NCBI GenBank assembly: GCA_028715605.1
Contig: JAQURM010000001.1
Coordinates: forward strand, 124,001 to 188,000
DNA: 64,000 nucleotides
Source: Desulfovibrionales bacterium
GTDB lineage: Bacteria; Desulfobacterota; QYQD01
Reading direction: 5' to 3'
Part shown: in pieces, positions 19,217 to 33,614 of the stretch
Layout: each line of letters starts with the position of its first letter
How positions within the stretch are numbered: the stretch's first letter is position 1
The notes under the pieces: generated by a model
What the model was told of the DNA's origin: nothing
The model's input: the letters and a program-made list of their open reading frames with translations, nothing else
Databases searched by the model: none
Translations under genes and position numbers: made by a program

Positions 19217-19301
19217 CGACAGGGTAATGAAGTTGTGCTGAAACCAAGCCCGTCTTTGGGTATCCTTTCTCCTCTACTGAGGATTTTCTTCCAAGTCAAA
19301 T

Positions 19302-19472
19302 GATGAATTCGTAAAAAAGCCTTTTCACCGCTGAGTACGCAGAGCCCGCAGAGAAAAACTTTAAACCGTTCGGCTGGCTCACGGTCATGAACCGGGTCGA
19401 ATGACTGTTCAATATGTTATCTCGGCGTTCTCGGCGACCCCTGCGGTAATTTTGACTTTTTACGAGGTCATC
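19302..19472. repeat. MITE-like element with about 33-base imperfect inverted ends
   Basis: The left end GATGAATTCGTAAAAAAGCC and the reverse complement of the right end GATGACCTCGTAAAAAGTCA align well and continue through ACCGC(T/A)GAG-like sequence. The centre shows further decayed palindromic matches (CTCGGCG against CGCAGAG). No transposase frame is present, so this is a non-autonomous or structural element. It occupies part of the 643-base gap between the M23 gene and the HD-NACHT gene. Confidence 0.55.
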
Positions 19473-19563
19473 AAATAACTGACGCAAAAAGAGGCGCTTT
19501 CGTTTGCATATCCGGGGCAGGGCCACGTCAAAGTCAACCCCAGCGAATACCTAAAATCCCCCT

Positions 19564-19618
19564 AAATCCCCCTTTACCAAAGGGGGATTTCTCAATTCCT
19601 CCCTTTGGAAAAGGGAGG
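19564..19618. repeat. Two consecutive strong hairpins (intergenic palindromes)
   Basis: AAATCCCCCTTT-ACC-AAAGGGGGATTT (19564-19590) is a perfect 12-base stem. It is followed by CCTCCCTTT-GGAA-AAGGGAGG (19598-19618). This is a common dispersed palindrome type in environmental bacteria; a role in ending transcription from the M23 gene is possible but the long distance makes it uncertain. Confidence 0.6.
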
Positions 19619-19710
19619 TCAGGAGGGATTTTTAACATAGAGAAATCATTCCACTAAATCAGCACGATAATGTTTACTTTGACGTTCCCGTGTATCCGGG
19701 GTCAAATCTC

Positions 19711-19741
19711 TTGACGGTCAAGATTATCTTTGTGGTATAAT
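19711..19741 (+). promoter_or_regulatory. Candidate promoter of the HD-NACHT-FGE gene
   Basis: TTGACG (19711-19716) and a consensus TATAAT (19736-19741) lie upstream of the DGR target gene. The 19-base spacer is longer than ideal. The start would give a leader of about 110 bases before the ATG at 19860. Confidence 0.45.
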
Positions 19742-19830
19742 TGCGCGACTGTGGGACCTTCCTCACCCATTTGTCTATAGCAAATTTTTTTACCGGCTCC
19801 CCTATCATCATCCGTTGATAACAGCCCCAT

Positions 19831-19846
19831 GCTCAGGAGTCTGAGC
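19831..19846 (+). promoter_or_regulatory. Leader hairpin abutting the ribosome site of the HD-NACHT-FGE gene
   Basis: GCTCAG-GAGT-CTGAGC is a perfect six-base stem with a four-base loop. It ends immediately before the AGGGAGG ribosome site (19847-19853) of the ATG at 19860. A stem at this place could limit ribosome access, but no ligand or protein site is recognised. Confidence 0.4.
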
Positions 19847-19859
19847 AGGGAGGTCTTGG

Positions 19860-22511
19860 ATGAACCTTCATGACATGCTCAAAGGGAAAAGCGTTGCAGA
19901 CGGGAAGATAGATCTGCATAAGCACATCTCCGAGGTAAAGGACCACGCGGCAAGATGGCTTGAAGGGATCCCCAAGAATGCTATAGATCATTCCCGAAGA
20001 CTGGAAGATTACTTAAATCGCTTGATCCCGGACGAGTTTAAGAAACGGCTCAAGCCTGCTGAGATATTCATCCTCCTGTATGCTGTCTATCTCCACGACA
20101 TCGGCTACCGGAACAAAGATGGCACCATAGAATCCCGAGACCATCCCCTGCGGAGCAAGCAGTACATACTAGAGAACCCAGACAAATACCTTTTTGACCG
20201 ATTTCCCTGCATGAATCCGGGAGAGCCGCCCTTGGCAGCTCAGGCAGTAGCGGAGGTCTGCTATGGCCATGCATCTGAATCACTGTGCCGTCTTGAGGAT
20301 ATCCAATATGACTTTGGAGATGCCTGTCTGTGCCAGGAACCCATAAATCTCCGGCGGATTGCGGCGCTTCTCAGACTTGCCGATGAAATGGACCAAGCTT
20401 ATGTACGCCTGGGACCTTCTTTCTTTAGAAAACATATCTCCTTGGTTGACATCGGTCAGGGTATTGTAAGATGGTATTGGCAAGGTGACGAAGGCGTTGG
20501 GAAAGTCCTTCATGAACAGGCAGACAAGATTAACGAAGTCCTTGAACCGGTGAACAGATGGCTCTCTGAATGGGAACTTCCAAAAACGACCGTTGTTTTA
20601 GACCCACGGGTGAAGAAGCCACCGCCACCGCCTCCACCTCCAGGGCCTGAAGACTACGAGAAATTCATCCCTAAACACTATATTCCTCCAAGATGCCAGG
20701 ATGAAGAGGGAAAAGATAAAGGACTTCTTCACAGCTATGTGCAGGACTGGCTGAACAACCTCGGCCGTAAGGTCCTAGTCGTGCTTGGTGACTTCGGGAT
20801 TGGAAAGACGTCTTTCTGTTACAAATTTGCCTCTGATCTCACTGGCTCCCGTGCCCCGGTCTTGATCGAACTCCGGACGATGCGCGAGAAAAAGAATCTC
20901 CACTGGCAAGAACTGATCAAGCGGGAGATAGACGACCGGAGGCCCTCGTCTGAAGATATTCTATTGATCCTGGACGGATTTGACGAAGTCTCCCTGAGAT
21001 TTGATAAGGAACAGGTCCTCAGAGAAATCGAGAGTCTCTCGAAGAGTACGAGAGACTTCGCCAAGGTGATTTTCACCAGCCGGACCCAGTTCTTCCGGGA
21101 CGTGCAGGAAGAACGGGAGATGTTATTTCGTGAGCCGGGCAGACCTTCCAGGGGCCCCGTACCCCTACCTTACCCGGAGAGATTTGAGAGGATATATATC
21201 TCTCCCTTCAGCGATGTAGATATCAAGGCCTACTTGGAACTTGAACTCGGTAAAAAGGGGGCCTCGCACTTCTGGAGCAACGTTATAGAGAAGGTTTTTG
21301 ATCTGAAGGACCTGGCCAAGCGTCCTATTCTCCTGGAACTCATAGCCAGGCACTCTGAAGATATCAGGCAGATAAAGGGCGCAGTTACCGCCGGCAAGGT
21401 CTATGGAGCCGTTACCGAGGCCTGGAGAAGGCGGGAGGGAGAGCGTGCGCCGGAAAACATCATGCTTTTCATGGAGGAGCTGGCCTACCGGATGTTTACC
21501 AGGCAAGAAAAACAGCTCCATTTCAGGACTCTAAGGGAAGCTATCGACTCATACTTTGACGATAGTACTAAGAGAAAGCTCAAGTTGTCTCTCGACAACC
21601 TGGATTACCAGATACGCACATCTGCGTTTCTCAAACGCAATGACGCCGAGGGTTACTACGCCTTTGCCCACCGCTCTTTTGTTGAATATTTTGTGGCCAG
21701 GAAGCTATCGAGGGAGATACCGGAAAACAAGGCCCAGGAGATAGAGATCACCGATGAGATAGCCCTTTTTGTCTCGGAACTCATAGACCCTTCGGTCTAC
21801 GAAAGGGTTGAATCACCGCAAGGCGCTGAGGTTCCCGAGGACATGGTCTACATCCCGCCCGGGCAGTTTATCATGGGCCAAGGAGATAACATCCGGATAA
21901 GGAGCCTGGAGAAGGGATTTCTTATAGATAAGCATCCCGTAACTAACGCCCAATTCTGCGCCTTCCTCAACGAGCGCGGCAATCAGAGTGAAGGCGGCGT
22001 GGAGTGGATTAACCTGGCAGGGGGTTATGAGAAGGAGAGATGCCGGGTAAAGAAGGACGGCGATCGCTTTGAAGTGGAGCCTGGCTATGAAGAGTATCCA
22101 GTTATCTACGTGACCTGGTACGGGGCGAGGGCCTATGCAAAGTGGGCTGGAAAGAGATTACCGGCAGAGGAAGAATGGGAGAAGGCGGCCAGGGGAATAG
22201 ATGGGCGCGCTTACCCGTGGGGAGACGAGTTTGATAAGGAAAAATGCAACACAGCGGAGTCAGGTATCTTGGAAACGACACCGGTTGGCAAATATCCGGA
22301 CGGCGCAAGCCCTTATGGTTGCCTGGATATGGCTGGAAATGTCTGGGAATGGACTGATAGCTGGTACGATGAAGAAAATGACTTAAAGGTGCTGCGGGGC
22401 GGTTCGTGGCTCATCAATTGGGGCGATGCCCGGTGCGCTTATCGCGACGGGGCCTCCCAGTGTATGGGGACGGCATCATCGGGTTTCGTTGCGCCAGGAC
22501 CTTATAAATAA
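19860..22511 (+). CDS. HD (HD-CE)-NACHT-FGE protein, DGR target 1
   Basis: An 883-residue protein in three modules. Residues about 20-230 form an HD hydrolase-like domain: DHSRRLEDYL, LHDIGYRNKDG, CYGHASES and LRLADEMDQAY supply His, His-Asp, His and Asp, as in the HD-CE group found in conflict systems. A run of eight prolines (about 254) links to a NACHT NTPase: Walker A GDFGIGKTS at 310-318, Walker B LLILDGFDEV at about 368-377, then IFTSRTQFFRD. Residues 662-883 are an FGE-sulfatase (C-type-lectin-like) domain with GNVWEWTDSWYDE. Its last 40 codons are the variable repeat VR1. A one-base deletion there shifts the final frame: the end reads SSGFVAPGPYK instead of the expected [10 protein letters not shown]. 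Likely cytoplasmic NTP-driven sensor/effector; the ligand is unknown. Confidence 0.92.
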   Translation: MNLHDMLKGKSVADGKIDLHKHISEVKDHAARWLEGIPKNAIDHSRRLEDYLNRLIPDEFKKRLKPAEIFILLYAVYLHDIGYRNKDGTIESRDHPLRSKQYILENPDKYLFDRFPCMNPGEPPLAAQAVAEVCYGHASESLCRLEDIQYDFGDACLCQEPINLRRIAALLRLADEMDQAYVRLGPSFFRKHISLVDIGQGIVRWYWQGDEGVGKVLHEQADKINEVLEPVNRWLSEWELPKTTVVLDPRVKKPPPPPPPPGPEDYEKFIPKHYIPPRCQDEEGKDKGLLHSYVQDWLNNLGRKVLVVLGDFGIGKTSFCYKFASDLTGSRAPVLIELRTMREKKNLHWQELIKREIDDRRPSSEDILLILDGFDEVSLRFDKEQVLREIESLSKSTRDFAKVIFTSRTQFFRDVQEEREMLFREPGRPSRGPVPLPYPERFERIYISPFSDVDIKAYLELELGKKGASHFWSNVIEKVFDLKDLAKRPILLELIARHSEDIRQIKGAVTAGKVYGAVTEAWRRREGERAPENIMLFMEELAYRMFTRQEKQLHFRTLREAIDSYFDDSTKRKLKLSLDNLDYQIRTSAFLKRNDAEGYYAFAHRSFVEYFVARKLSREIPENKAQEIEITDEIALFVSELIDPSVYERVESPQGAEVPEDMVYIPPGQFIMGQGDNIRIRSLEKGFLIDKHPVTNAQFCAFLNERGNQSEGGVEWINLAGGYEKERCRVKKDGDRFEVEPGYEEYPVIYVTWYGARAYAKWAGKRLPAEEEWEKAARGIDGRAYPWGDEFDKEKCNTAESGILETTPVGKYPDGASPYGCLDMAGNVWEWTDSWYDEENDLKVLRGGSWLINWGDARCAYRDGASQCMGTASSGFVAPGPYK
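22385..22500 (+). other. DGR variable repeat VR1
   Basis: Aligned by eye with the template repeat at 23964-24080. The first 25 and last 30 or so bases are identical. In between I count 20 substitutions and one single-base deletion, and every one is at a template adenine; there are no changes at C, G or T. This is the signature of adenine-specific mutagenic retrohoming. The deletion (near 22455, template AACCCA against TCCCA here) puts the downstream part out of frame. Confidence 0.93.
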
Positions 22512-22540
22512 CCCTTTGCCCTTTTTCTCTTTTACCCTTT

Positions 22541-22555
22541 ACCGCCGGAGGCGGT
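22541..22555 (+). promoter_or_regulatory. Post-VR hairpin of DGR target 1
   Basis: ACCGCC-GGA-GGCGGT forms a perfect six-base GC-rich stem, 40 bases after VR1. The same sequence stands at the matching place after VR2 (26458-26472) and is absent after the template. In known DGRs a hairpin just downstream of the variable repeat helps target recognition; this is the obvious candidate here. Confidence 0.6.
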
Positions 22556-22570
22556 CGATATTTTTTAGCC

Positions 22571-22921
22571 ATGCCGCAGGAAGTTGACGCCATAACCAAG
22601 CTCTATGACTTCATCCTCTGGATGATTCCCAAGCTTGAAAAATATCCCAGGAGCCAGAAGTTTCTCCTGGCGGATAGGATAGAGAACCTGATGCTCGACA
22701 CCCTCGAACTCCTAATCGATGCGGCATACTCCAAGAAGAAAGGGGAATTACTACGGTCAGCGAACTTGGAGCTTGAGAAGCTGAGGTATCTGGTGCGGCT
22801 GTCTAAAGACCTCAAGCTCCTCAACGTCAAAGAATATGAGTTTTCCTCCCGCTCCATTAATGAGATAGGGACTTCCATCGGCGGCTGGCTGAAATACACA
22901 CGACGTGAAAACCTACAATAG
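22571..22921 (+). CDS. avd: Avd-type DGR accessory protein
   Basis: A 116-residue helical protein matching the accessory variability determinant family: a four-helix bundle that forms a pentameric, positively charged barrel and binds the reverse transcriptase and template RNA. Family features seen are TKLYDFILWMIPKLEKYPRS, FLLADRIENLMLDTLELLID and LEKLRYLVRLSKDLKLL, with many Lys/Arg. It starts 15 bases after the post-VR hairpin and overlaps the reverse transcriptase start by 17 bases, so both are likely translated from one mRNA. No good ribosome site precedes the ATG. A truncated copy with two stop codons follows VR2 at 26489. Confidence 0.92.
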   Translation: MPQEVDAITKLYDFILWMIPKLEKYPRSQKFLLADRIENLMLDTLELLIDAAYSKKKGELLRSANLELEKLRYLVRLSKDLKLLNVKEYEFSSRSINEIGTSIGGWLKYTRRENLQ

Positions 22922-23999
22922 CCTGTTCGACAGAGTCGTTTCCTTTGAGAATCTCCTGCTTGCGGCGCAAAAGGCCCAGAAGGGGAAACGCTTCAAAGAG
23001 TCCACCGCCCTTTTCAATCTCGAACTGGAAAAAGAACTCGTCCGGCTTCAGAAAGAACTGGCGGAGATGACATACAGGCACAGTCCGTACCACGATTTCA
23101 TCGTACACGATCCAAAACAGCGGGTTATCAGCGCTGCGCCTTACCGCGACCGGGTCGTGCATCATGCGCTCTGCAACGTCATAGAACCGCTGTTCGATAA
23201 GGCGTTCATTTTCGACTCTTACGCTTGCAGGGTGGCAAAGGGTACTCATGCGGCTGTGGACAGATATACCGAGTTCGCGCGGAAGAACAAGTACGTCCTT
23301 AAGTGCGACATTCAGAAATACTTCCAGAGTGTTGATCACGACATACTGTTTGAAAAGATTTCGCGGAAGATAAGATGCGGAAAGACGCTGTGGCTGATAA
23401 GAGAAATAATCGGTTCGCGATCTGACAAAGGCCACATGTTTTATTTCCCGGGTGATGACCTTTTCACTCCCGGTGCCAGGCGAAAAGGTATCCCCATAGG
23501 GAACCTTACCAGTCAGTTTTTTGCCAATGTCTACCTCAATGACTTTGACCACTTTGTGAAGGAAGAGCTGAGATGTAAGTACTACATTCGCTATGTCGAT
23601 GATTTTGTGGTGTTCGAGAACGTGAAAGGGTTCCTCCATGAGGTCAGGGCGCGCATGGAGAGACATCTTGAATCATTGAGGCTAAGGCTCCACGAAAGAA
23701 AATGTCGAGTCTACCAGACCCGTGATGGGGTCAGTTTTCTTGGATACAGAATCTTTCCCACTCACAGGCTGTTGAAGAAAAATAATGTCCTAAGAACGAA
23801 GAGAAGGCTGAAGAGGCTGTCCGGCCAATACAGGGACGGGGATGTCACTCTTGAAAGGATAAATCAGAGCATACGAAGCTGGATAGGCCACGCAAGCCAT
23901 GCCGACACCTATCTGTTAAGGTCTCGGGTGTTGGGGGGCGTGGTTTTTCAGAGGGGTGAGGCCAAAGGTGCTGCGGGGCGGTTCGTGGAACAACAATAG
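22905..23999 (+). CDS. DGR reverse transcriptase
   Basis: A 364-residue retroelement RT that copies the template RNA with adenine-directed errors. RT motifs are in order: [20 protein letters not shown], the first catalytic Asp in [31 protein letters not shown] (I198-Q204; the IGxxxSQ form is diagnostic of the DGR clade) and the active site YVDD at 230-233, then a thumb region with [11 protein letters not shown]. The start is GTG inside avd. The stop codon lies inside the template repeat, so the last eleven or so residues ([11 protein letters not shown]) are read from TR sequence. Size fits DGR RTs. No maturase or endonuclease domain is present. Confidence 0.96.
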
Positions 24000-24080
24000 G
24001 AACAATGCCCGGTGCGCTAATCGCAACAGGAACAACCCAGAGAATAGGAACAACAACATCGGGTTTCGTTGCGCCAGGAC
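23964..24080 (+). other. DGR template repeat (TR)
   Basis: A 117-base repeat of VR1 at the 3' end of the RT gene. Its core is full of AAC, AAT and AGG codons (read in the VR frame it would give [18 protein letters not shown]), the arrangement that lets adenine mutagenesis change many residues while avoiding most stop codons. It is bordered by the invariant CTGCGGGGCGGTTCGTGG and the GC-rich end CGTTGCGCCAGGAC, the likely initiation-of-mutagenic-homology region. The same TR also matches VR2, with drift. Confidence 0.94.
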
Positions 24081-24105
24081 TTGTATAAATCTAATGATGC
24101 CGGAG

Positions 24106-24129
24106 CTCCGTCTTTCACGGAAGACGGAG
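24106..24129 (+). ncRNA. Hairpin in the DGR template-RNA spacer
   Basis: CTCCGTCTT-TCACGG-AAGACGGAG is a perfect nine-base stem starting 26 bases after TR. In studied DGRs the region downstream of TR is part of the structured RNA that primes reverse transcription, so this hairpin is a likely part of it. The remainder of the gap to 24355 shows no gene; some shorter pairings exist. Confidence 0.45.
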
Positions 24130-24355
24130 GGGTGTATCATATAAGTCCAGGCCTCGCTCCTGCGTTGGCTTGCCAAAAGCCAACCGAAACATCAACCCTC
24201 TCGGCCCGGGCTGGTAGCTTTCAAGCGAACGTTCGGGCGGAGAATTCAGAAATGACAGGCCGGGTCTATAAAATAGTGGCAAAGAGGCTTCACGTTTCAG
24301 GCGGCAGGCACGGCTGGGATAAGGAGAACACGACAAACTGACCCGAGGGGGCATC

Positions 24356-26425
24356 ATGGTTAAGCAACTCAACATCAGATCGGATATCTACTGCGAAAAG
24401 GATCTATTGGGATTTGACAAGTACGTCGACACTCTTAGCGGCATGATTGAAGACACGGACTTCAAGACGCCCTTCTGTATAGGTATATTCGGAAACTGGG
24501 GAAGCGGAAAGACGAGTTTCATGCACCTTCTTGAGAATAGGCTTAAGGAGGGCGAAGGCAGCCCCCGTGTCATCCCCGTATGGTTCAACCCTTGGAGATA
24601 TGAGAAAGAAGAACATTTGATCATTCCATTTTTAAAAACCATCCAACACGAGATAGAGAAATACATTAAAAGTCAAAAGGGAACGAAGACAAGGCTTGCC
24701 GAAGGTTTGAAACGTGCCGCCACAAAGGTGGGCGAGGTGTCGGCAGCCATTGCCTATGGCATAAAACCGGAGTGCAAGTTGGGCGGCTTTGGCATCGAAT
24801 TCGATATTGCCAAAATGGCGGACCGGGAAGAGGATCTCGCCAAAAGGAGACTGGAAAAAGCAAGAAAGATATCAGATAAGCTGTCGTCCATCTACTACGA
24901 TTCCTTGACCGAATTAAAGAGCGCCATTGATGAAAAGAGTTTTCGGTTGGCGGTTTTCGTCGATGATCTCGACCGGTGCCTTCCGGAAAAGGCGGTTGAA
25001 CTCTTTGAGGCGATGAAACTGTTTCTTGATATCGAGGGCTGTATTTTCATTGTAGGCGTGGCGAAAGATATCGTTAAAAAGGGAATTTCTTACCGGTACC
25101 GGTTCCTTGAATCTAAGGAGAAGGAACCCGGGGGCGCTGGCATATCATCGGAAGACTACCTGGACAAGATGATACAGCTTCCCCTTGAACTTCCACCGAT
25201 CGAGCCCGGAAGGAAGAGGATGTTCATTGAATCGTTAATAGGTGATGCCGGGGGTTTCAGGGAGCACGCGGATATCATCGAAATCGGCGTGGGAGATAAC
25301 CCGAGGTCCCTGAAGCGATTCATCAACCTCCTCGCATTTACGGTAAGGCTGGCGGAGACGGTTAAGGCGAGCATTCTTGAGGACAGAGTGGATCCGAAGG
25401 AGAGCGACGACCACAAGGAACTCCTCTGGAAATACTTCATCCCGCTTTTTTATACAAAATGGACGATCATCGCCTTTCGTTTCCCAAAGGTTCATTCGGA
25501 TATCAAAGGGAATCCGGAGAGATTGGTCGAGTTGCAGAAGGCGGCCAGAGGGGAGGCAGAGAAGGCTGCAGGTCTCGAAGAGAGCGGAGAAAAGAAGAAA
25601 CCTGTTGAAGCAATAGATGACCAGCTGAAGAGAGTCCTTTTAAAAGGGGAACCCTTCCCGGCGGATGCATGGCTGATGGCGAGATTTGTCCACCTTACGG
25701 AAGCAACGCGTGTTACCGCCAAAGAAGAGGCATCTGCCGGGTACAGCCAGAGGTTTGAACCGGGCGACATGGTTTGGATTCCGAAAGGCAGCTTTTTCTA
25801 TGGCGATGAAAAACTCGGAAAGAACATAGAGTATGAGTACGTTATTGACGTATTCCCTGTTACCAATAAGCAATACAAAGCATTTCTTGATGACGAGAAA
25901 GAACATGAAGTTCCATACATAGAAGAGGATTGGGCCCAAAAGTATAAATGGGACAAGGAAAAGAGGTCCTATCCTGAAGGAAAGGGTGATCACCCGGTAG
26001 TGCTCGTCAGCTATCAGGATGCGCTGGATTTTTGCAGGTGGCGGTCTCAAAAGGAGGGAAAGAACCATAGACTGCCCACTGAAGAGGAATGGGAGAAGGC
26101 CGCCAGGGGCATAGACGGGCGGGTCTATCCCTGGGGGAACGAATTTAATAAGGCGAAGTGCAATACCTATGAATCGGAAATTGGCGGGACCACACCCGTT
26201 GGCAAATATCCGGACAGCGCCAGTCCTTACGGTTGTCGTGATATGGCAGGCAATGTATGGGAATGGACTGATAGCTGGTACGATGAAGGGCAAGACGCGA
26301 AAGTGCTGCGGGGCGGTTCATGGACCCGCTATGGGGTCGACGCACGGTGTGCTCTCCGTGGCAGGTACTTCCCGGGCGACAGGGGCCTCGGCACCGGTTT
26401 CCGGTGCGCCAGGGATTTAGAATAA
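24356..26425 (+). CDS. KAP-family P-loop ATPase fused to FGE domain, DGR target 2
   Basis: A 689-residue protein. The N-terminal KAP NTPase has Walker A GNWGSGKTS at 46-54, the family motif VWFNPWRYEKEEHL and Walker B VFVDDLDRCLPEKAVELFEA near 200-215, then DNPRSLKRFINLLAFTVRLA. KAP ATPases are often membrane-associated and occur in defence and signalling. The family's usual transmembrane insert is not obvious here. Residues 472-689 form an FGE-sulfatase domain like that of target 1, ending in VR2 and GTGFRCARDLE, in frame. A GAGGGG ribosome site precedes the ATG. It lies 275 bases after TR and is followed by the same hairpin and an avd remnant, which suggests that its FGE end arose by duplication of target 1 and was joined to a different NTPase. 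Confidence 0.9.
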   Translation: MVKQLNIRSDIYCEKDLLGFDKYVDTLSGMIEDTDFKTPFCIGIFGNWGSGKTSFMHLLENRLKEGEGSPRVIPVWFNPWRYEKEEHLIIPFLKTIQHEIEKYIKSQKGTKTRLAEGLKRAATKVGEVSAAIAYGIKPECKLGGFGIEFDIAKMADREEDLAKRRLEKARKISDKLSSIYYDSLTELKSAIDEKSFRLAVFVDDLDRCLPEKAVELFEAMKLFLDIEGCIFIVGVAKDIVKKGISYRYRFLESKEKEPGGAGISSEDYLDKMIQLPLELPPIEPGRKRMFIESLIGDAGGFREHADIIEIGVGDNPRSLKRFINLLAFTVRLAETVKASILEDRVDPKESDDHKELLWKYFIPLFYTKWTIIAFRFPKVHSDIKGNPERLVELQKAARGEAEKAAGLEESGEKKKPVEAIDDQLKRVLLKGEPFPADAWLMARFVHLTEATRVTAKEEASAGYSQRFEPGDMVWIPKGSFFYGDEKLGKNIEYEYVIDVFPVTNKQYKAFLDDEKEHEVPYIEEDWAQKYKWDKEKRSYPEGKGDHPVVLVSYQDALDFCRWRSQKEGKNHRLPTEEEWEKAARGIDGRVYPWGNEFNKAKCNTYESEIGGTTPVGKYPDSASPYGCRDMAGNVWEWTDSWYDEGQDAKVLRGGSWTRYGVDARCALRGRYFPGDRGLGTGFRCARDLE
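26300..26415 (+). other. DGR variable repeat VR2 (drifted)
   Basis: Alignable without gaps to TR. About 24 template adenines are changed, and about 13 other positions also differ, nearly all at third codon positions. Adenine-directed change therefore built this sequence, after which silent drift accumulated. The frame is intact (SWTRYGVDARCALRGRYF at its core). Whether the present TR can still write to it is unknown. Confidence 0.85.
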
Positions 26426-26457
26426 TTACTCTTTGCACTTTAACCCTTTTACCCTTT

Positions 26458-26472
26458 ACCGCCGGAGGCGGT
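26458..26472 (+). promoter_or_regulatory. Post-VR hairpin of DGR target 2
   Basis: ACCGCC-GGA-GGCGGT, identical to 22541-22555 and at nearly the same distance from its variable repeat. The preceding TTTACCCTTT is also shared. Confidence 0.6.
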
Positions 26473-26488
26473 CGACAATTATTGAGTA

Positions 26489-26600
26489 GTGCCGTAACAA
26501 GTTGATGCCATAACCAAGGTCTATGACCTTATCCTCTGGATGATTCCCAAGCTTGAAAAGTACCCCAGAAGTCAGTAAGTTCTCCTGGCGGGCGGGATGC
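26489..26600 (+). pseudogene. Decayed avd copy
   Basis: Translated in the avd frame it reads QVDAITKVYDLILWMIPKLE and KYPRSQ, nearly the same as residues 3-29 of Avd, but with a stop at codon 3 and another after KYPRSQ, and the homology fades after about 112 bases. It stands in the same place relative to VR2 as avd does to VR1, so it is a relic of a duplication of the target-hairpin-avd segment. Confidence 0.88.
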
Positions 26601-26630
26601 GCTTAACCCAACTTCCACAGTTATGAGAGA

Positions 26631-26738
26631 TAACGAGTCTGTAGAAAAAGCCCGATTCCCACTATGTTCCGACTCGTAACCATTTGATTTTATTAATAGC
26701 AAATTTGCGAAAAGAGACTTTTCCTACAGACTCAACGT
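26631..26738. repeat. Small inverted-repeat element (MITE-like)
   Basis: TAACGAGTCTGTAGAAAAAG at the left and CTTTTCCTACAGACTCAACG at the right are inverted with two or three mismatches, enclosing about 65 bases with no gene. The left arm recurs exactly at 6741-6760. Confidence 0.6.
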
Positions 26739-26821
26739 TCGGCCTGAGTCGCTACGCCTCGGGAGCTGCTCTTTTGAACCCTGCTGTCTCGCCGGTCGAC
26801 TCCAACCTGCGTACAGCCTTG

Positions 26822-27331
26822 TTAACGCTTTTCTTGAAGCCAAGGTTGATAACGGAGCAACTCCACGAGCAGGGAGTACACCTTATCCCTATTTTGTCTT
26901 AATTGTTTTCGGTAAGCCAAATCCCTTGATTCTAGTTCGGCACGGGATTCCAGCGTGAGCGATCCATCTTCTTTTGTTATAGCTGTCCAGTGGGGGCACC
27001 TGGTCAGCATGCCGATTTGTCCTGCATAGAATCTGCCCATGTTCAGTTCCGCAACAAAACTGACTAGTTCGCTCGCATCATGACGTAGTGTATCCACGGA
27101 AGCGTCATCTTCGATAGAATCCAGGAACTGCATTCGGCAAAATAGTGGATGGAACTGGGAAGAAAGGATCGAGGGGTCCTTATATTGCCTAAAAAGTTGC
27201 AGCTTCTTGCTGTCCATCTTGCTTGTCGGGCTGTGTAAGTCGGTTAGGTGGCAGTTGGGGCAAAGTGGTAGCAGGTTCAGAATGTCATTGTTGTCGGGGT
27301 TCTCGTCTATATGATGGACTTGTGGACTACT
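26822..27331 (-). pseudogene. HNH endonuclease gene, 5' end removed by IS630 insertion
   Basis: An open frame continues without stop from the insertion-sequence edge at 27331 to the stop at 26822. It begins SSPQVHHIDENPDNNDILNL, then LPLCPNCHLTDLHS: the HH-N-H arrangement and the CPxCH pair of an HNH nuclease with its zinc-binding half. The C-terminal 131 residues (from KMDSKKLQLFRQYKDPSI) are helical. The N-terminal part is missing: on the other side of the insertion sequence the frame can be followed for only a few codons (FRGAP) before IS3-derived DNA. An internal ATG at 27217 would make a product without the HNH motif. A non-functional remnant is most likely. Confidence 0.8.
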
Positions 27332-28471
27332 AGTGTAGTGTCTCAGTAATATATTTACAATTTCTATTTATTGTGTTATAGTTGGTGTCATGTGGAAACC
27401 AACCGATGCTTTGCCGATGACAATGGAACAGAGAAGAACGCTTGAGGGGTGGATCCGAGCTGGAACGACGCCGCAGAGAATGGTTTTGCGATCCAAGATA
27501 TGTCTGCGTGCAGCCGACGGACGATCCAATAACGCCATTGCCAAAGAGTTGGGCACGTCTCGTCCAACGGTTCTGCTTTGGCGAGAGCGATTCCTCAAAC
27601 AGGGGGTTTTGGGATTGTCTGAAGATGCACCCCATGGTCCGAGCGCTCAATGTTTGGCCCCCCAGAAAGTTAAAGCGATTGTGGAGACGACTCTCCAGAC
27701 GGCTCCTCCCGGCGCGACTCACTGGAGTACCCGAATGATGGCCGAAAAAATGGGCGTGAGCCACTCCAGCGTCGCACGAATTTGGAATGCCCATGGGTTG
27801 CAGCCCCATCGAACCAAGGGGTTCAAGTTGTCCAAGGACAAACGATTTGTTGAAAAGCTGACGGACGTTGTCGGTGTCTATTTGAATCCTCCGGATAAGG
27901 CCCTCGTACTGTGTGTCGACGAAAAGTCGCGAATCCAAGCGCTGGACCGAACCCAACCCGGGTTGCCGATGAAAAAGGGACGATGTGGGACAATGACGCA
28001 CGATTATAAACGTAACGGGACCACCTGCCTTTTTGCAGCACTCAATGTCCTTGAAGGCACCGTTATTGGCACCTGTTATCCGCTTCATCGCAACGAGGAG
28101 TTTCTAAAGTTCTTGCGCAAGATTGATCGTGAAACTCCTCGGAAACTGGATCTCCACTTGATCCTGGACAATTATGGCACTCACAATCATCCTAATGTGA
28201 AAACATGGCTCCAACATCATCCGCGATTCCACTTGCATTTCACACCGACCAGTTCTTCTTGGCTGAACCTCATAGAACGATGGTTTGGTGAAATCACGCG
28301 CAAAAGGATCCGCCGAGGCGTCTTCAAGAGTGTTCCAGAGTTGGTTGCTGCTATCAAAGAGTTCATTCGATTAAACAATCAAAACCCCAAACCTTTTGTA
28401 TGGACCAAGAAAGTTGAAGAGATCCTGGAGAAGGTTAATCATTGTAAAGCCGTTATTGAGACACTACACTA
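27331..28471 (+). mobile_element. Intact IS630-family insertion sequence
   Basis: About 1.14 kb with perfect 15-base terminal inverted repeats: TAGTGTAGTGTCTCA at 27331-27345 and TGAGACACTACACTA at 28457-28471. The terminal TA at both ends is the duplicated target dinucleotide typical of IS630/Tc1-mariner. It has split the HNH gene. The single transposase frame is uninterrupted, so the element may be mobile. Confidence 0.93.
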
Positions 28472-28472
28472 G
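27390..28472 (+). CDS. IS630-family transposase
   Basis: A 360-residue DDE transposase. The N-terminal helix-turn-helix reads IAKELGTSRPTVLLWRERF and is followed by a second DNA-binding helix region (MMAEKMGVSHSSVARIW). The catalytic triad lies in LCVDEKSRIQALDR, LILDNYGTHNHP and SSSWLNLIERWFGEI, with D-D-E spacing typical for IS630. The last codons run through the right inverted repeat, and the stop codon TAG is made from the terminal TA of the element plus the first flanking G. The insertion site therefore decides how the protein ends. Confidence 0.95.
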   Translation: MWKPTDALPMTMEQRRTLEGWIRAGTTPQRMVLRSKICLRAADGRSNNAIAKELGTSRPTVLLWRERFLKQGVLGLSEDAPHGPSAQCLAPQKVKAIVETTLQTAPPGATHWSTRMMAEKMGVSHSSVARIWNAHGLQPHRTKGFKLSKDKRFVEKLTDVVGVYLNPPDKALVLCVDEKSRIQALDRTQPGLPMKKGRCGTMTHDYKRNGTTCLFAALNVLEGTVIGTCYPLHRNEEFLKFLRKIDRETPRKLDLHLILDNYGTHNHPNVKTWLQHHPRFHLHFTPTSSSWLNLIERWFGEITRKRIRRGVFKSVPELVAAIKEFIRLNNQNPKPFVWTKKVEEILEKVNHCKAVIETLH

Positions 28473-28520
28473 GTGCACCGCGGAACTTGTCAATGAAAAT
28501 GAGACACCTCCATAAAGAAT

Positions 28521-29033
28521 TTAGTGTCGCAATGGATCACTATTTTCTGACGCCGGTTTATTGATCCAGACCGCCTCGGGCAAGGCCATCGGTTTTGGCA
28601 TCTTCCCCTTGAATCGCTCCGGATGTTTTGCAAAAGCATCATTTAGAACTACTTGACGCTCCCTGATAATTTGTTCAGTCTGTCCGTAATGGACATTTTC
28701 CGGGGTGAGGAATCCGATCCCGGAATGGTAATGCCCGGTATTGTACCAACCGAAAAATCCCTGGCAGAAGGACCTGCTGTCCTCGGCATACCCGAAGCGC
28801 TCCGGGAACTCCGGCCGGTATTTCAGGGTCTTGAACTGGGCTTCCGAATAGGGGTTGTCATTGCTCACATAAGGCCGGGAAAGGCTTTTGGTAATCCCCA
28901 GATCAGCAAGCAGGAAAGCAACCGTTTTTGAGGTCATACTGGGTCCCCGATCAGAATGGATGCTCAGTTGACTTGATTGAATTCCCTGTTTCTCGCAGGA
29001 CTGTTCGATCAGTTTCTTTGCCAGAGATGACGA
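28521..29033 (-). pseudogene. IS3-family transposase remnant (integrase core, C-terminal part)
   Basis: The frame is open from 29033 to a stop at 28521. It contains KKLIEQSCEKQGIQSSQLSI, HSDRGPSMTSKTVAFLLADL, SRPYVSNDNPYSEAQFKTLK and YHSGIGFLTPENVHYGQ: the second Asp, the catalytic Glu and the end of an rve/DDE integrase core. The first half with the first Asp and the helix-turn-helix OrfA is missing, so it cannot be active. The stretch 28472-28520 (with GGAGGTGTCTCATTTTCATT on the minus strand) looks like the right end of the element. Confidence 0.85.
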
Positions 29034-29365
29034 TTACATTGGCACAGAGGGCGCGCCGGTCTGCGCTGCGTACCGAACCAGACCCGGCTTCCTGCTAATA
29101 ACGATGCCCATTCCGACATTTTTGGGGGCCAACCCGTTTCGAAATCTTCCCTACCTATACTGTTTCATCTTGGAATATCGATCAATTCCTGATATAAAAT
29201 CAAACATCACAACTATACTGAGCCGATAAATTTCCAAATAATGGCTAGCGGTTCAGTTCAACAGGACTTTTTACGGTCGGCTTAGCGCTGTAAGAACTCT
29301 TATTCGTTATGCGTTTCTAAAATGTCCTGACTAACCTAATTTGTAATAGATAACGAAAAATAATA
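29034..29365. other. Intergenic stretch between IS remnants and the nucleotide operon
   Basis: No gene is recognisable. The base composition becomes AT-rich from about 29160, which marks the edge of the following island. Around 29245-29310 there are weakly attC-like words (GTTCAACAGGAC and TTCGTTATGCG), but they do not pair convincingly. The promoter of the next operon should lie here; I see no strong consensus, and the ATG at 29366 has no clear ribosome site. Confidence 0.4.
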
Positions 29366-30202
29366 ATGCATATCATCCATTTATCGGATCTACATTTTTG
29401 TACGGGCATCCCTCTTGCTATGGATGAGGATAGAGTAATTTCCGCTATCAAGAAAGCTGTTTCTGATACCTCTATCGATTGTCTTTATTTATGTATCACA
29501 GGAGACATTGTCCTTAAGGGAGATGTTAGGGCTTACACACTAGCAGAGTTTTTTCTGAAAAAATTATGTTCCGAAATAAAAATTAAAAAGGAGCATATAA
29601 TAATTTGTCCTGGTAATCACGATTTTGTAGTCAGTAAACAGAGTTTTGACGATTACAATAAATTCGTTTTCAGTTTAACACGCAATGACGCACTCATGCT
29701 GTCAAAGCACTCAATTTCGCCTTATTTTATTAATGAGTTATGTTTCCTGGTTGTAAATAGTACCTATCATTTAGATCACACTTATGGCCTCATAGAACTT
29801 AATAGATTGCAAGAAGTTATGGAAGGAATTGACAGCTGCTGTGATAAAATATTATGTTTGCACCATCACTTGTTGCCGACTGATGACTTTTCGTGTTTAA
29901 AGAATGCTTATAGTCTTTTAAATCTTTGCACCTCTACCGATATCAAATTAATATTGCATGGTCACAGACATATGAACTTGCATTTAACGGTTGGAAATTC
30001 CTCGTTATTGATATCGGGGAGCGGTTCATTGTTTCAGACTTCTCGACAAAGTGGTTATACAAATCAGTTCCAAAGTCTAATTATCGACAGAAATAATAGT
30101 AAGATTTATCAAAAAATATTCAGATACTTAATTGATAGTCATGATAAGAAAAATGTAGATGATTTTTACGTTGAAAGGTACGAATATGGCATATTGCGAT
30201 AA
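29366..30202 (+). CDS. Calcineurin-like metallophosphoesterase
   Basis: A 278-residue phosphoesterase, first gene of the AT-rich operon. Metal-binding motifs are all present: LSDLHF (Asp8, His10), ITGDIVLKGD, CPGNHDF, LHHHLLP and LHGHRHMN. It could be a nuclease, a cyclic-nucleotide or a nucleotide phosphatase; the substrate cannot be read from the motifs. There is no signal peptide, so it is cytoplasmic. Its end overlaps the start of the kinase-like gene by 17 bases. Low GC relative to the flanking core genes suggests acquisition by transfer. Confidence 0.88.
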   Translation: MHIIHLSDLHFCTGIPLAMDEDRVISAIKKAVSDTSIDCLYLCITGDIVLKGDVRAYTLAEFFLKKLCSEIKIKKEHIIICPGNHDFVVSKQSFDDYNKFVFSLTRNDALMLSKHSISPYFINELCFLVVNSTYHLDHTYGLIELNRLQEVMEGIDSCCDKILCLHHHLLPTDDFSCLKNAYSLLNLCTSTDIKLILHGHRHMNLHLTVGNSSLLISGSGSLFQTSRQSGYTNQFQSLIIDRNNSKIYQKIFRYLIDSHDKKNVDDFYVERYEYGILR

Positions 30203-30839
30203 AGGTTTTTTTATTGTTTTCGAAGGTATTGATGGTTCTGGTTCTTCCACGCAAGCCAGATTACTATATGAATATTTACTTTCAAATTCATTAGTTGGTA
30301 AAAAAGCTGTTCTCACAGCTGAACCGACATTTGGGCCTGTAGGCCAAGTAATTAAATCTATTATGCAGGGAAGGCTGGTCACCTGCATGGATAACAAAAT
30401 GGATGATCGATTATTGGCTTATCTTTTTGCAGCTGATCGGCATGATCACTTATACAACGCTGTCAATGGGATTGCAAAACGGCTAAACGAACAATATGCT
30501 GTAATCTCTACCAGATACTATTTATCCTCTTTAGCTTATCATGTATCCGATAATGCTGATTATCGGTTTGTGTATTCATTGAATAAGAATTTTCCAAATC
30601 CAAACATAATCTTCTACTTAGAATGTCCAGTTGACGTTGCCATTGAGAGACTTAAAAAAAGAGATCATCTTGAAAAATATGAGAATAAAGAAAAGTTATC
30701 AATGGTTGAGCGTAACTATCAAGAGGCAATAAGCCATTACAAGGATGTATTGTATAAAATAGATGGGGCTAAATCCATCAAAGATATCCACAGCAAAATA
30801 GTACGCATAGTTCATAAGTTGCTAGAGGAAAAGAAATGA
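30186..30839 (+). CDS. Thymidylate-kinase-like P-loop protein
   Basis: A 217-residue TMK-fold protein. The P-loop is FEGIDGSGSSTQARLL (residues 12-27), where the invariant Walker A Lys is Ser20; a Thr or Ser here is seen in a subset of TMK-like proteins, so activity is not excluded. Later elements are TAEPTFGPVGQVIK, DRLLAYLFAADRHDH (DR motif region), VISTRYYLSSLAYH and the lid-like RLKKRDHLEKYENKE. The ATG at 30186 has GAAAGGT upstream and overlaps the phosphoesterase gene; a longer frame from 30159 lacks such a site. The stop overlaps the next ATG as ATGA. A role in phosphorylating a dNMP or modified nucleotide is inferred from context. Confidence 0.85.
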   Translation: MAYCDKGFFIVFEGIDGSGSSTQARLLYEYLLSNSLVGKKAVLTAEPTFGPVGQVIKSIMQGRLVTCMDNKMDDRLLAYLFAADRHDHLYNAVNGIAKRLNEQYAVISTRYYLSSLAYHVSDNADYRFVYSLNKNFPNPNIIFYLECPVDVAIERLKKRDHLEKYENKEKLSMVERNYQEAISHYKDVLYKIDGAKSIKDIHSKIVRIVHKLLEEKK

Positions 30840-31726
30840 ATATGCTCTCAGACTTTATAAAGAGCGCTGAAGAATCTTGTAGTAACGGTCGAGTTTTTAA
30901 CCTCATTCTTCAGGGGGAATTTCCTATTGCAGAAATTGATTCAACATTTGTTCGGGTCCACACTGAAAAAGCCGTTCAATGGCAGGCACGAGAACGACCT
31001 GAATCATTGATAATTAATCACGGTGAATATATACATAAATATGGCGATGCCATTGAGTATGTTATTGACGAACTAAAGCGAAAACCAGACTCAAACAGAG
31101 CTGTAATCAGTTTGATTAATTGTAAGGATATATTGCATAGCGGGGATCGTCCTATACCTTCATTTATGATTTTTCAGTTTAGTTTTAAATCTCATCAATG
31201 CATAGTATGCACAGCATATTTCAGGGCCTTAGAAGTCTCCAAATTTTTACCATCAAATATTGCCGAAATTTGCTTAATTCTAAGGGAAATAAAAGAGAAA
31301 ATTCCATCAATTGAGCAAGTAATGATAACAATTCATGCCTTTAGCGCATATTCAAATAAGGATTTTTATTGTCTAGAGGTATCAGAGATCGACTTAGATA
31401 AGAATAAAGGTGCTATTGCTATCGCTGTGGCTAAACAGGATTACGTTACTATCTCCAGCCTGCTTCAGTCCAAGCTTAGGGATGAGTCGTATGTAAATAC
31501 CAATGGCATTACAGAGCTGCAGAATGCTTTACGCCTATGTTCCGACAATTATGACAGGAGGATAATTAGTAATATAGGGGCTTGCCTCTTAAACATGAAG
31601 CGACTCCAGCGAATTAGAAGATCCTCCTCCCACTCACATGAAGTTTTAAGTCTGAATCAGAAGATACAAACCATTTTGAGCGATACCATAAAAATCTTGC
31701 ACGAGACAATAAGAGGACGATCATGA
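30836..31726 (+). CDS. Thymidylate-synthase-fold protein lacking the catalytic Cys
   Basis: A 296-residue protein. The middle aligns by eye with ThyA: IEYVIDELKRKPDSNRAVIS matches the conserved NxLxxxPxSRR region, RPIPSFMIFQFSF matches the PCHxxxQF active-site strand, AYFRALEVSKFLPSNI matches the QRSxDxxLGxPxNI segment (Arg130 kept) and IHAFSAYSNKD matches GDxHxYxNH. At the catalytic position PCH reads PSF, so the nucleophilic Cys is Ser109. Classical dUMP methylation is therefore unlikely. The C-terminal 100 residues form a helical extension not found in ThyA. It is coupled by ATGA overlaps to the genes on both sides. Possible roles are binding or altered chemistry on a pyrimidine nucleotide. 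Confidence 0.8.
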   Translation: MNMLSDFIKSAEESCSNGRVFNLILQGEFPIAEIDSTFVRVHTEKAVQWQARERPESLIINHGEYIHKYGDAIEYVIDELKRKPDSNRAVISLINCKDILHSGDRPIPSFMIFQFSFKSHQCIVCTAYFRALEVSKFLPSNIAEICLILREIKEKIPSIEQVMITIHAFSAYSNKDFYCLEVSEIDLDKNKGAIAIAVAKQDYVTISSLLQSKLRDESYVNTNGITELQNALRLCSDNYDRRIISNIGACLLNMKRLQRIRRSSSHSHEVLSLNQKIQTILSDTIKILHETIRGRS

Positions 31727-32061
31727 CATTAGCAGAGATCATGAAGCTTCAAAAACTATTTGATGAAAAACATAAAGGTGCCTTTTCGTGGCACCAAAAG
31801 ATCAATTCTGAAAATATTCATATATTAGAGTATCTGATTATTGGCCTTATTGGCGAGGTCGGAGAATTAGCTAATATTATAAAAAAAATACGGCGCGGAG
31901 ATTTAACTTATTCTGAGCATAAGGATGATATTGCTGAAGAGATTGTAGACGTATTTATTTACTTATTAAAGATGGCATACCAAAATGATATTGACATTGA
32001 ACAAGAATTTCTAAGAAAATTAGAAAAAAATAAAAGAAGATTTAAAATGTTTGAGCTGTGA
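31723..32061 (+). CDS. MazG-like NTP pyrophosphohydrolase
   Basis: A 112-residue all-alpha protein of the MazG/dUTPase-like superfamily. The Mg2+-binding motif ExxE...ExxD appears as GEVGELAN (Glu45, Glu48) and AEEIVDVFIYL (Glu73, Asp76). Such enzymes split (d)NTPs to monophosphate and pyrophosphate and cleanse or supply nucleotide pools. It overlaps the preceding gene by ATGA, and the radical SAM gene begins within or eight bases after its end. Confidence 0.92.
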   Translation: MTLAEIMKLQKLFDEKHKGAFSWHQKINSENIHILEYLIIGLIGEVGELANIIKKIRRGDLTYSEHKDDIAEEIVDVFIYLLKMAYQNDIDIEQEFLRKLEKNKRRFKMFEL

Positions 32062-32068
32062 CCTTGTA

Positions 32069-32983
32069 ATGATAAAAGAAATTTCTATTGATCTCACATA
32101 TAAGTGTCCATTTCGATGTATCCATTGTTCGAACGAGCCGTCTTGTTTGCACGAACAGTTGTCCTTTGAAAATTATAGCTTGATGCTTAAGTATTTCATA
32201 GAGCATCATAGCCTGAGAATCGTAGAATTCGGAGGCGGGGAGGCTTTCTGCCATCCTGATTTTATTAAAATGGCTAATTTAGTTCCTGAAGGGATAAAAA
32301 AAATTATATATACTTCCGGCTGCCTCGGACTTAAAGGCCATGATTTTTTAACCTTGCAAGATACTGCTCTTCTTAAGTCATTAGGTTTTGAACAAATTAG
32401 TATTTCTGTTTACAGTCATCTTTCCGCTATTCATAACCAAATAATGAAGTTAGATAACGCTTATAAAAGAGTCATGTTTTCTCTTGAGAATTTGCAAAAA
32501 GTGGGACTTAGAATTTGCATTCATATTGTTGTGACAAAATTAAATATTGATCACCTTGGAGAAACTGTAGCTTCTCTTTATAAACGCTTTAATATTTCTA
32601 ATTATCGCCTTTTGCGTTTTGTGCCACAAGGGATCGGGTATTTAAATCGAAAAAAACTCGAAGTCGATAATGGGCTTGTTGACCTAAAGAATTTTTCCAA
32701 GAATATGATGCAACAATTTAACGAGATAAATATTTCTTATGCTGGGTATCCTGCAATTATTAAATGCCGACCTCATAAAGAGATTAAAGATAAATGCTCG
32801 GCTGGTATTGAGTTTGTTCATATTCTTCCTAATTCAAAAATAATTCCTTGTCCTTCTTTTAAATGGCTGAAATCTGATTGTAGATATTCTCTATCATTGC
32901 TGGATATTAATAGGTTGGGGCTTTGGAGGGCAACTAAAAGAAATGACTGTTGGCAAAAGGAAGTTCGGTCATCTAACAGGTGA
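32069..32983 (+). CDS. Radical SAM enzyme, unknown substrate
   Basis: About 304 residues. The [4Fe-4S] motif CPFRCIHC (Cys13, Cys17, Cys20 from the chosen ATG) lies in DLTYKCPFRCIHCSNEPSC. Next come FGGGEAFCHPDF (the GGE SAM-binding motif), SISVYSH and, near the C terminus, scattered Cys residues (KCRPHKEIKDKCSAG, IPCPSF) that resemble a short SPASM/twitch cluster site. It lacks the CNYxCxFCF pattern of viperins. A TTG at 32051 overlapping mazG is an alternative start. Given the TS-like, kinase-like and MazG-like partners, a nucleotide or a small molecule attached to it is a likelier substrate than a peptide, but SPASM-type proteins usually act on peptides, so both remain open. Confidence 0.88.
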   Translation: MIKEISIDLTYKCPFRCIHCSNEPSCLHEQLSFENYSLMLKYFIEHHSLRIVEFGGGEAFCHPDFIKMANLVPEGIKKIIYTSGCLGLKGHDFLTLQDTALLKSLGFEQISISVYSHLSAIHNQIMKLDNAYKRVMFSLENLQKVGLRICIHIVVTKLNIDHLGETVASLYKRFNISNYRLLRFVPQGIGYLNRKKLEVDNGLVDLKNFSKNMMQQFNEINISYAGYPAIIKCRPHKEIKDKCSAGIEFVHILPNSKIIPCPSFKWLKSDCRYSLSLLDINRLGLWRATKRNDCWQKEVRSSNR

Positions 32984-32996
32984 AGGAGTAATTACA

Positions 32997-33422
32997 ATGA
33001 ATATACAAAAATTGATTGATAAAATTTGGAAAGACCCTTCTATGAGTGATGATGAAATCATATCAGCCATTCAGAAGCTCCCATCAAACCAATTAGCATT
33101 ATTGCATGGATTATATCAACATATTAAAAATGATACGGTCGACGCTTGGCTGTGTCGTGTGGATACACATCATGACTATACAATCAACAGCTTTACTAAA
33201 GCATCACTCGATGAGCGTAACTTTTTTAGAGATATTATCATTTGCTTCTATCTGTCTGAGTATAGATTGGATGGCCTTTTGTATTGGCCCGGTGAAATGA
33301 GGGATAGACAATTGAAAGATATGATAAGGAGTTATGGTCTAAACAAGGATGTTCTTCTTACAATTCATCAAAATTGGGTTTGTATTAAGAAAATGGTTGG
33401 TCGTGTAAAATCTTTTGTGTAA
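32997..33422 (+). CDS. Unknown 141-residue protein ending the nucleotide operon
   Basis: The ATG at 32997 has a GAAGGAG site that overlaps the stop of the radical SAM gene. The product is soluble and looks helical, beginning NIQKLIDKIWKDPSMSDDEI and containing HHDYTINSFTKASLDERNFF and YWPGEMRDRQLKDM. I recognise no domain. Same strand, spacing and AT-rich composition as the five genes before it, so it is probably part of the same system. Confidence 0.7.
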   Translation: MNIQKLIDKIWKDPSMSDDEIISAIQKLPSNQLALLHGLYQHIKNDTVDAWLCRVDTHHDYTINSFTKASLDERNFFRDIIICFYLSEYRLDGLLYWPGEMRDRQLKDMIRSYGLNKDVLLTIHQNWVCIKKMVGRVKSFV

Positions 33423-33431
33423 ATTCTGAAA

Positions 33432-33488
33432 TCCCGCGAAAGCGGGAATCCAGAGAAAAAAGACTGGATTCCGGGTCAAGCCCGGAAT
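33432..33488. terminator. Two hairpins between convergent operons
   Basis: TCCCGC-GAAA-GCGGGA (33432-33447) and ATTCCGGG-TCAAG-CCCGGAAT (33468-33488) are perfect stems. They lie just after the nucleotide operon, which converges on the trehalose gene at 33615. The sequence is also a common dispersed palindrome. The run AGAAAAAAG between the stems may serve as the U-tract for the minus-strand transcript, but this is a weak terminator by eye. Confidence 0.45.
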
Positions 33489-33614
33489 GACAATAATACA
33501 TGAAGATAGGACATTAATATTACAGGTATCAATAAATCCTTCGTATGTTGTAAGCAATGCTCAAGCTTGCTAACAATCTGAAATAAAAGCTAGAGATATT
33601 TGACTATCAGGGTG

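Follow-up and report, generated by a model that had tools for sequence, protein, structure and literature searches.

Many phages remodel thymidylate metabolism, and enzymes of the thymidylate synthase (TS), thymidylate kinase (TMK) and MazG families form the pool-level part of the phage pathways to hypermodified thymine; taken together, the three resemble phage hydroxymethyl-dU (hmdU) pathways. MazG and TS family members also often sanitise or supply nucleotide pools. Among bacterial defence systems, those validated from DefensePredictor include TS, dNMP kinase, 5-hmdU kinase and metallophosphatase domains; the metallophosphatase residues of DS-8 and DS-9 are required for phage defence, and in DS-8 this metallophosphoesterase (MPE) family is fused to NACHT (PMC13092281). 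For DndF, a kinase domain has been suggested to sense modified nucleotides that derive from phages (PMC10853773).

Here we analyse a six-gene operon in a 64,000-nucleotide stretch of a Desulfovibrionales contig (the window), which is probably a nucleotide-centred defence cassette. Its MPE is a relative of the DS-9/DS-8 metallophosphatase with metal-binding residues intact in 8/8 cassettes, and in Clostridia cassettes it is joined to a second domain as in DS-8, namely a TS-like domain in place of NACHT. In contrast to DS-9 and DS-8, the cassette has no NACHT or HAD partner and possesses a TS-like protein, MazG and a modifier enzyme. The best named models for the MPE are DS9_1 (5.6e-27; 94.7 against a cut-off of 420) and DS8 (6.9e-19; 67.1 against a cut-off of 790), both far below the family cut-offs, so that by score the protein is a member of neither family. 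The cassette also resembles the DefensePredictor TS, dNMP kinase and 5-hmdU kinase systems in placing nucleotide enzymes in a defence setting. The DS-named TS models gave no matches to the cassette TS; the E. coli version of the cassette may overlap a DefensePredictor system, the comparison being with the text description of those systems. The original prediction knew of no described system with this exact composition, and PADLOC, NCBIfam, PHROGs and literature searches for the gene combination among searchable papers likewise yielded none. The combination is apparently new to description, and its probable kind is that of nucleotide-centred defence.

A six-gene operon within a variable island

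Six open reading frames, all on the plus strand, occupy positions 29366-33422 of the window (Table 1), and re-reading of the ORF calls and junctions bore out the overlapping and abutting arrangement first proposed for them. The MPE and TMK genes overlap by 17 bases (30186-30202, from the TMK ATG at 30186 to the MPE stop at 30200-30202), and ATGA at 30836 and at 31723 forms the TMK/TS-like and TS-like/MazG junctions. The radical SAM gene starts with an ATG at 32069, 7 bases past the MazG stop (an alternative TTG at 32051 would overlap MazG), and the last gene starts with an ATG at 32997 whose AAGGAG Shine-Dalgarno site touches the radical SAM stop at 32983. Pfam matches agree with the families originally named for the first five proteins (metallophosphoesterase, thymidylate kinase, thymidylate synthase, MazG and radical SAM), the synthase match being weak and limited to the core. 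The last protein has no match in Pfam, PADLOC, NCBIfam or PHROGs and no similarity to the small unrelated protein that ends a Clostridia cassette (L126) after its radical SAM gene; its single-sequence model (pLDDT 58) was discarded as too poor. A promoter scan gave a result at chance level.

Table 1. Features of the operon and its island, in window positions
Feature	Position	Strand	Basis or remark
Variable island with operon, IS debris and diversity-generating retroelement system	19290..33592		synteny with G001
bAvd	22571-22921		retroelement part
Reverse transcriptase	22905-23999		retroelement part
DDE_3 transposase	27390-28472	+	PF13358 1.1e-22
rve_3 integrase-core fragment	28521-28937	-	PF13683 2.4e-11
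Metallophosphoesterase (MPE, calcineurin-like), related to anti-phage DS-9A/DS-8	29366..30202	+	PF00149 6e-13
Thymidylate-kinase (TMK)-family protein, Walker-A Lys->Ser, DRx Asp->Thr	30186..30839	+	PF02223 7e-42
TS-like protein, predicted thymidylate synthase fold without catalytic Cys (Ser109)	30836..31726	+	PF00303 7.5e-07, core only
MazG-like nucleotide pyrophosphohydrolase, catalytic acids intact	31723..32061	+	PF03819 4.5e-08
Radical SAM enzyme	32069..32983	+	PF04055 1.8e-12
Small protein, 141 aa, no family match	32997..33422	+	ORF

The congener G001 (L103) aligns with the window as far as position 19289 and then from 33593 onwards; 2.3 kb of different sequence separates the two parts in G001, and G003 and G004 carry still other genes next to the same trehalose-phosphate synthase flank gene. 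Because these genomes differ there, the 14 kb between the two points constitute a variable island. The operon has a GC content of 0.345-0.37 and its surroundings of about 0.49; together with the transposase genes on the left and the variable island itself, this agrees with the earlier suggestion of an AT-rich, transferred segment bordered by IS debris. Mobile DNA is also found at the related loci described below, as integrases in L003 and L008 and as conjugative plasmids in E. coli.

The island further encodes an HD-CE/NACHT/FGE protein, bAvd, a reverse transcriptase and a KAP/FGE protein, and includes a diversity-generating retroelement (19860-26425) attached to conflict-type NTPases. The template repeat lies near 23964, and the HD-CE/NACHT/FGE protein has the variable repeat at its end, near 22385; the two repeats differ at 12 of 70 bases, every one of them at a template A. 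The second FGE protein, which has a KAP NTPase (24356-26425), carries a repeat near 26303 with 15 A and 6 non-A differences. Positions 26499-26568 share about 91% identity with the region of the bAvd gene at 22581 and apparently represent a remnant of a second retroelement copy. A palindromic repeat-like sequence (CCCGCGAAAGCGGG ... TCCGGGTCAAGCCCGGA) at 33432-33495 lies just 3' of the operon, in the right margin of the island.

Recurrence of the cassette and exchange of its last enzyme

The window TS-like protein served as bait for related loci, in the gene-neighbourhood search that had been suggested as a check. Seven more loci from several phyla contain the MPE/(TMK)/TS-like/MazG set, which makes a chance assembly unlikely; the refuting outcomes named with the original prediction, a set confined to this contig or genes that mostly occur separately, thus did not come about. 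These loci come from Campylobacterota, Clostridia and E. coli, from an IMG/VR element and from a different family within the window's phylum, and the gene order is the same with the one exception of L126, where TMK follows MazG. A Peptostreptococcaceae MAG (L002, a 4.5-kb contig and possibly misbinned), Aliarcobacter (L003), the IMG/VR element (L008) and G028 of the window's phylum (L091) encode MPE, TMK, TS-like protein and MazG followed by a thymidylate synthase that is catalytic and about 450 aa long. A 5'-nucleotidase (PF06189; PADLOC candidate PDC-S08, 1.2e-133) is encoded directly upstream of the MPE in L091 (12725-13654).

Copies on E. coli plasmids and chromosomes (L004, L005, L107, L108) are probably decaying, since they have no TMK, are flanked by insertion sequences and carry a shorter synthase (311 aa) that is frameshifted in one of them. 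The frameshifted synthase is that of pEC2-4 (L005 10177-11111); in the others, among them E. coli G3/10 (L107 18177-19264), the short synthase ends next to an IS3-family element, and an IS630 element lies upstream of the E. coli cassette copies.

Two Clostridia genomes, G1341 (L125) and G1393 (L126), have the same radical SAM form as the window. In both, a single fused protein combines the MPE and TS-like domains; MazG comes next, then in L126 alone TMK, and after these the radical SAM enzyme. A helicase gene downstream in L125 looks restriction-like by eye only. A distant cousin of the cassette in G208 of the window's phylum (L092 8284-12466) consists of an HD::TS-like fusion that overlaps the radical SAM gene and is adjoined on the opposite strand by a TMK-domain protein with an extra C-terminal domain; its TS-like part was detected by profile and missed by pairwise BLAST. 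The TS-like domain is joined to a phosphohydrolase twice, as MPE::TS-like in the two Clostridia and as HD::TS-like in G208.

Several candidates were set aside. Weak TS-like matches in Campylobacterota and Clostridia (E 1e-3 to 1e-5) were taken as ordinary thymidylate synthases, which is how the two that were read, L127 and L128, turned out, and phage TS matches to the TS-like query covered the common core only. A viral radical SAM locus (L132) was read as phage cargo without a cassette, and the radical SAM protein as sole bait against plasmids and viral contigs found nothing. A faecal phage record (MT838439.1; L133 1-4191) was rejected as a cassette; it encodes a long MPE/NTPase protein like DS-8, in which the MPE domain is followed by a NACHT-like NTPase region, as read from the sequence, in an arrangement resembling DS-8 architecture.

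The TS-like family is present in 3/395 genomes of the window's phylum, with 1 clear match in the 104 genomes of the Aliarcobacter family and 3 strong matches in the 391 genomes of the class Clostridia. The cassette is rare and mobile, and its gene combination is kept across distant bacteria. This bears on whether the genes could be a metabolic or sanitation operon, such as one for dUTP/dTTP house-cleaning, or mobile-element cargo outside defence. MazG and TS family membership fits such an account, but the very patchy distribution, the variable site and the complete Cys-bearing TS encoded elsewhere in the window genome all argue against it, and we hold it to be the least probable of the readings considered.

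The gene content also bears on DNA base modification, by which a mobile element would mark itself or carry hypermodified DNA. The cassettes share a TS-type enzyme, a TMK-type kinase and MazG with the phage hydroxymethyl-dU and hypermodified-thymidine pathways, and the catalytic TS is nearest to phage TS families. They differ from these pathways in their Cys-less TS-like core, in an altered kinase and in a radical SAM form that has no catalytic TS. The cassettes read encode no DNA-level modification enzyme, and none of them has a polymerase, a DNA kinase, a transferase or a partner for restriction. Since the cassette is accompanied by neither a polymerase nor a gene for modification at the DNA level, the hypermodification pathway that the original prediction had brought up found no support, and this role is very improbable.

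The core set ends in one of two interchangeable enzymes. Five loci have the synthase form, with a catalytic, phage-type thymidylate synthase, and the window and the two Clostridia loci have the radical SAM form, in which the radical SAM gene sits in the slot held by the synthase in the sister cassettes. In a tree of concatenated MPE, TS-like protein and MazG, the synthase-form loci are separated from the window and the two Clostridia fusions with an ultrafast bootstrap of 100, and single-gene trees give the same split (MazG 90, TS-like 97, TMK 91, MPE 76). The core-gene trees therefore agree on the division into synthase and radical SAM forms, and since the change of last enzyme falls on a single deep split, it is no local accident of the window contig. 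We regard this exchange as the most surprising part of the cassette.

Active sites of the core and modifier proteins

Residues of MPE and MazG were compared over eight cassettes. The MPE metal ligands (D8, H10, D47, N84, H85, H166, H167, H198, H200, H202) and MazG E45, E48, E72, E73 and D76 are invariant in all eight, and the active sites of MPE, MazG, synthase and radical SAM enzyme are intact. The catalytic synthase is closest to phage TS families (phrog_5131 2.3e-61) and retains its Cys. Asn or Asp at one position sets substrate specificity in TS-type enzymes; because Asn stands here at the Asp position of the CMP hydroxymethylase MilA, the enzyme is expected to act on dUMP.

The four radical SAM proteins (window, L125, L126 and L092) have CxxxCxxC and, towards the C-terminus, three more invariant Cys in common. 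Among structures they lie nearest to PqqE, MoaA and SkfB (6e-20 to 6e-18), viperin PDB structures matching at 1e-6 to 1e-5. The window protein scores 28.7 bits against the viperin model NF038283 (cut-off 180), and other radical SAM families score higher, so that a viperin (pVip) identity was rejected on score.

In the TMK, the Walker-A Lys and the DRx Asp are replaced by Ser/Thr in the window and by Thr/Thr in L002, L003, L091 and L008, both residues being lost in 5/7 loci that have a TMK. They are retained in L126, in L092, in five phage TMKs and in the aligned PDB TMKs, and the E. coli copies and L125 have no TMK gene. Phosphorylation may matter in some members, since the kinase motif is intact in L126 and L092.

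An operon with both a radical SAM enzyme and a TMK-family kinase recalls pVip with VakA and makes an antiviral nucleotide logic plausible. The cassette would then be a factory working like viperin and its kinase: the radical SAM enzyme or TS would make a modified pyrimidine nucleotide, the kinase would activate it and the product would poison phage replication, with MazG and MPE serving housekeeping or self-protection. Weak matches of the radical SAM proteins to pVip and of the TMK to the viperin-associated kinase VakA, as well as the intact kinase motif of L126 and the likeness of TS, TMK and MazG to phage hmdU pathways, are in keeping with this. However, the radical SAM enzyme is no viperin by score and lies nearer to PqqE and MoaA, the Walker-A Lys and DRx Asp are gone in the window and four other loci, the kinase is absent from E. 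coli and L125, and MPE, TS-like protein and MazG are additions to the pVip/VakA pair. The kinase loss counts against a factory of purely viperin-like type without deciding the matter, and we consider such a factory rather unlikely.

The TS-like core aligns by profile match with residues 110-186 of E. coli TS and retains equivalents of R127, R166 and N177. The position of E. coli TS Cys146 is occupied by Ser in 8/8 cassettes and by Ala in L092. Only generic TS models match this family in PADLOC, NCBIfam and PHROGs. Its AF2 model, of moderate quality (pLDDT 67), gives TS-type PDB matches with TM-scores near 0.3, the best of them to a dCMP hydroxylase that depends on flavin and is listed with FAD; given this fold match, the TS-like protein may be a genuine enzyme with other chemistry.

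With the catalytic Cys lost from one and two catalytic residues from the other, neither the TS-like protein nor the window TMK appears to be an ordinary metabolic enzyme. The original prediction that the families all touch nucleotides, except perhaps the last two, stands as regards a nucleotide-centred set and passes over these losses. Because the hydrolases and the modifier are intact while the TS-like protein and the kinase are altered, the residue pattern, as we infer from the alignments, speaks for hydrolysis and sensing of nucleotides rather than for their simple activation.

The alteration of both thymidylate-enzyme copies would also suit a system in which they are pure sensors: TS, the radical SAM enzyme or the phage itself would make a signal nucleotide, and the sensors would switch on an MPE effector whose target is other than dNMP. 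The related MPE is fused to NACHT in DS-8 and to a NACHT-like region in L133, and the TS-like domain takes the regulator's place here; the proposed sensor role of a DndF kinase domain is in line with this (PMC10853773). Against this, every complete cassette has an intact modifier and MazG, which suggest substrate processing beyond sensing, and a purely signalling role seems unlikely, more so than the factory.

Predicted role and its meaning

Our preferred reading, held tentatively and with somewhat less than even confidence, is that the operon is a nucleotide-processing cassette which moves horizontally and most likely acts against phages; it is predicted to deplete or poison a nucleotide pool with MPE as terminal phosphohydrolase. 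Phage infection would disturb pyrimidine deoxynucleotides, MazG would convert dNTPs to dNMPs, and the radical SAM enzyme (TS in the sister cassettes) would alter a pyrimidine dNMP. The Cys-less TS-like protein and the TMK-fold protein may bind ligands of the dUMP/dTMP type and thereby serve MPE as a module for sensing or handover; MPE would act as the terminal phosphohydrolase, and the thymidylate/dNTP pool needed for phage replication would be depleted or poisoned.

This reading is consistent with the recurrence of the set in distant bacteria and the agreement of the trees (bootstrap 100), with the fusions of the TS-like domain to phosphohydrolases (MPE in Clostridia, HD in G208), and with the invariance of the MPE and MazG residues alongside the loss of the TS-like Cys and of the TMK residues or the whole TMK. 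It also suits the closeness of the MPE to DS-9A/DS-8, the extra 5'-nucleotidase ahead of the cassette in G028, and the mobile, defence-type setting of variable island, integrases and IS elements. Points against it are the intact kinase motif in L126 and L092, the nearness of the radical SAM enzyme to PqqE, MoaA and SkfB, which gives no pointer to a dNMP substrate, and the fold match to dCMP hydroxylase, by which the TS-like protein might catalyse other chemistry. A more specific version, which would make this a new class of immune cassette and in which the catalytically altered TS and TMK copies watch the thymidylate pool and gate the phosphohydrolase while the interchangeable TS and radical SAM enzymes yield the same or an equivalent unusual nucleotide, is possible but on the doubtful side.

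A cassette that combines a TS lacking its Cys and an altered TMK with MazG and a phosphoesterase would directly answer the remodelling of thymidylate metabolism by phages. By swapping TS and radical SAM enzyme one for one in a single slot, nature has run an unusual experiment: either equivalent nucleotides can arise by two unrelated chemistries, or different modifiers serve against different phages. Either outcome, if true, would tie radical SAM chemistry to antiviral nucleotides beyond the viperins.
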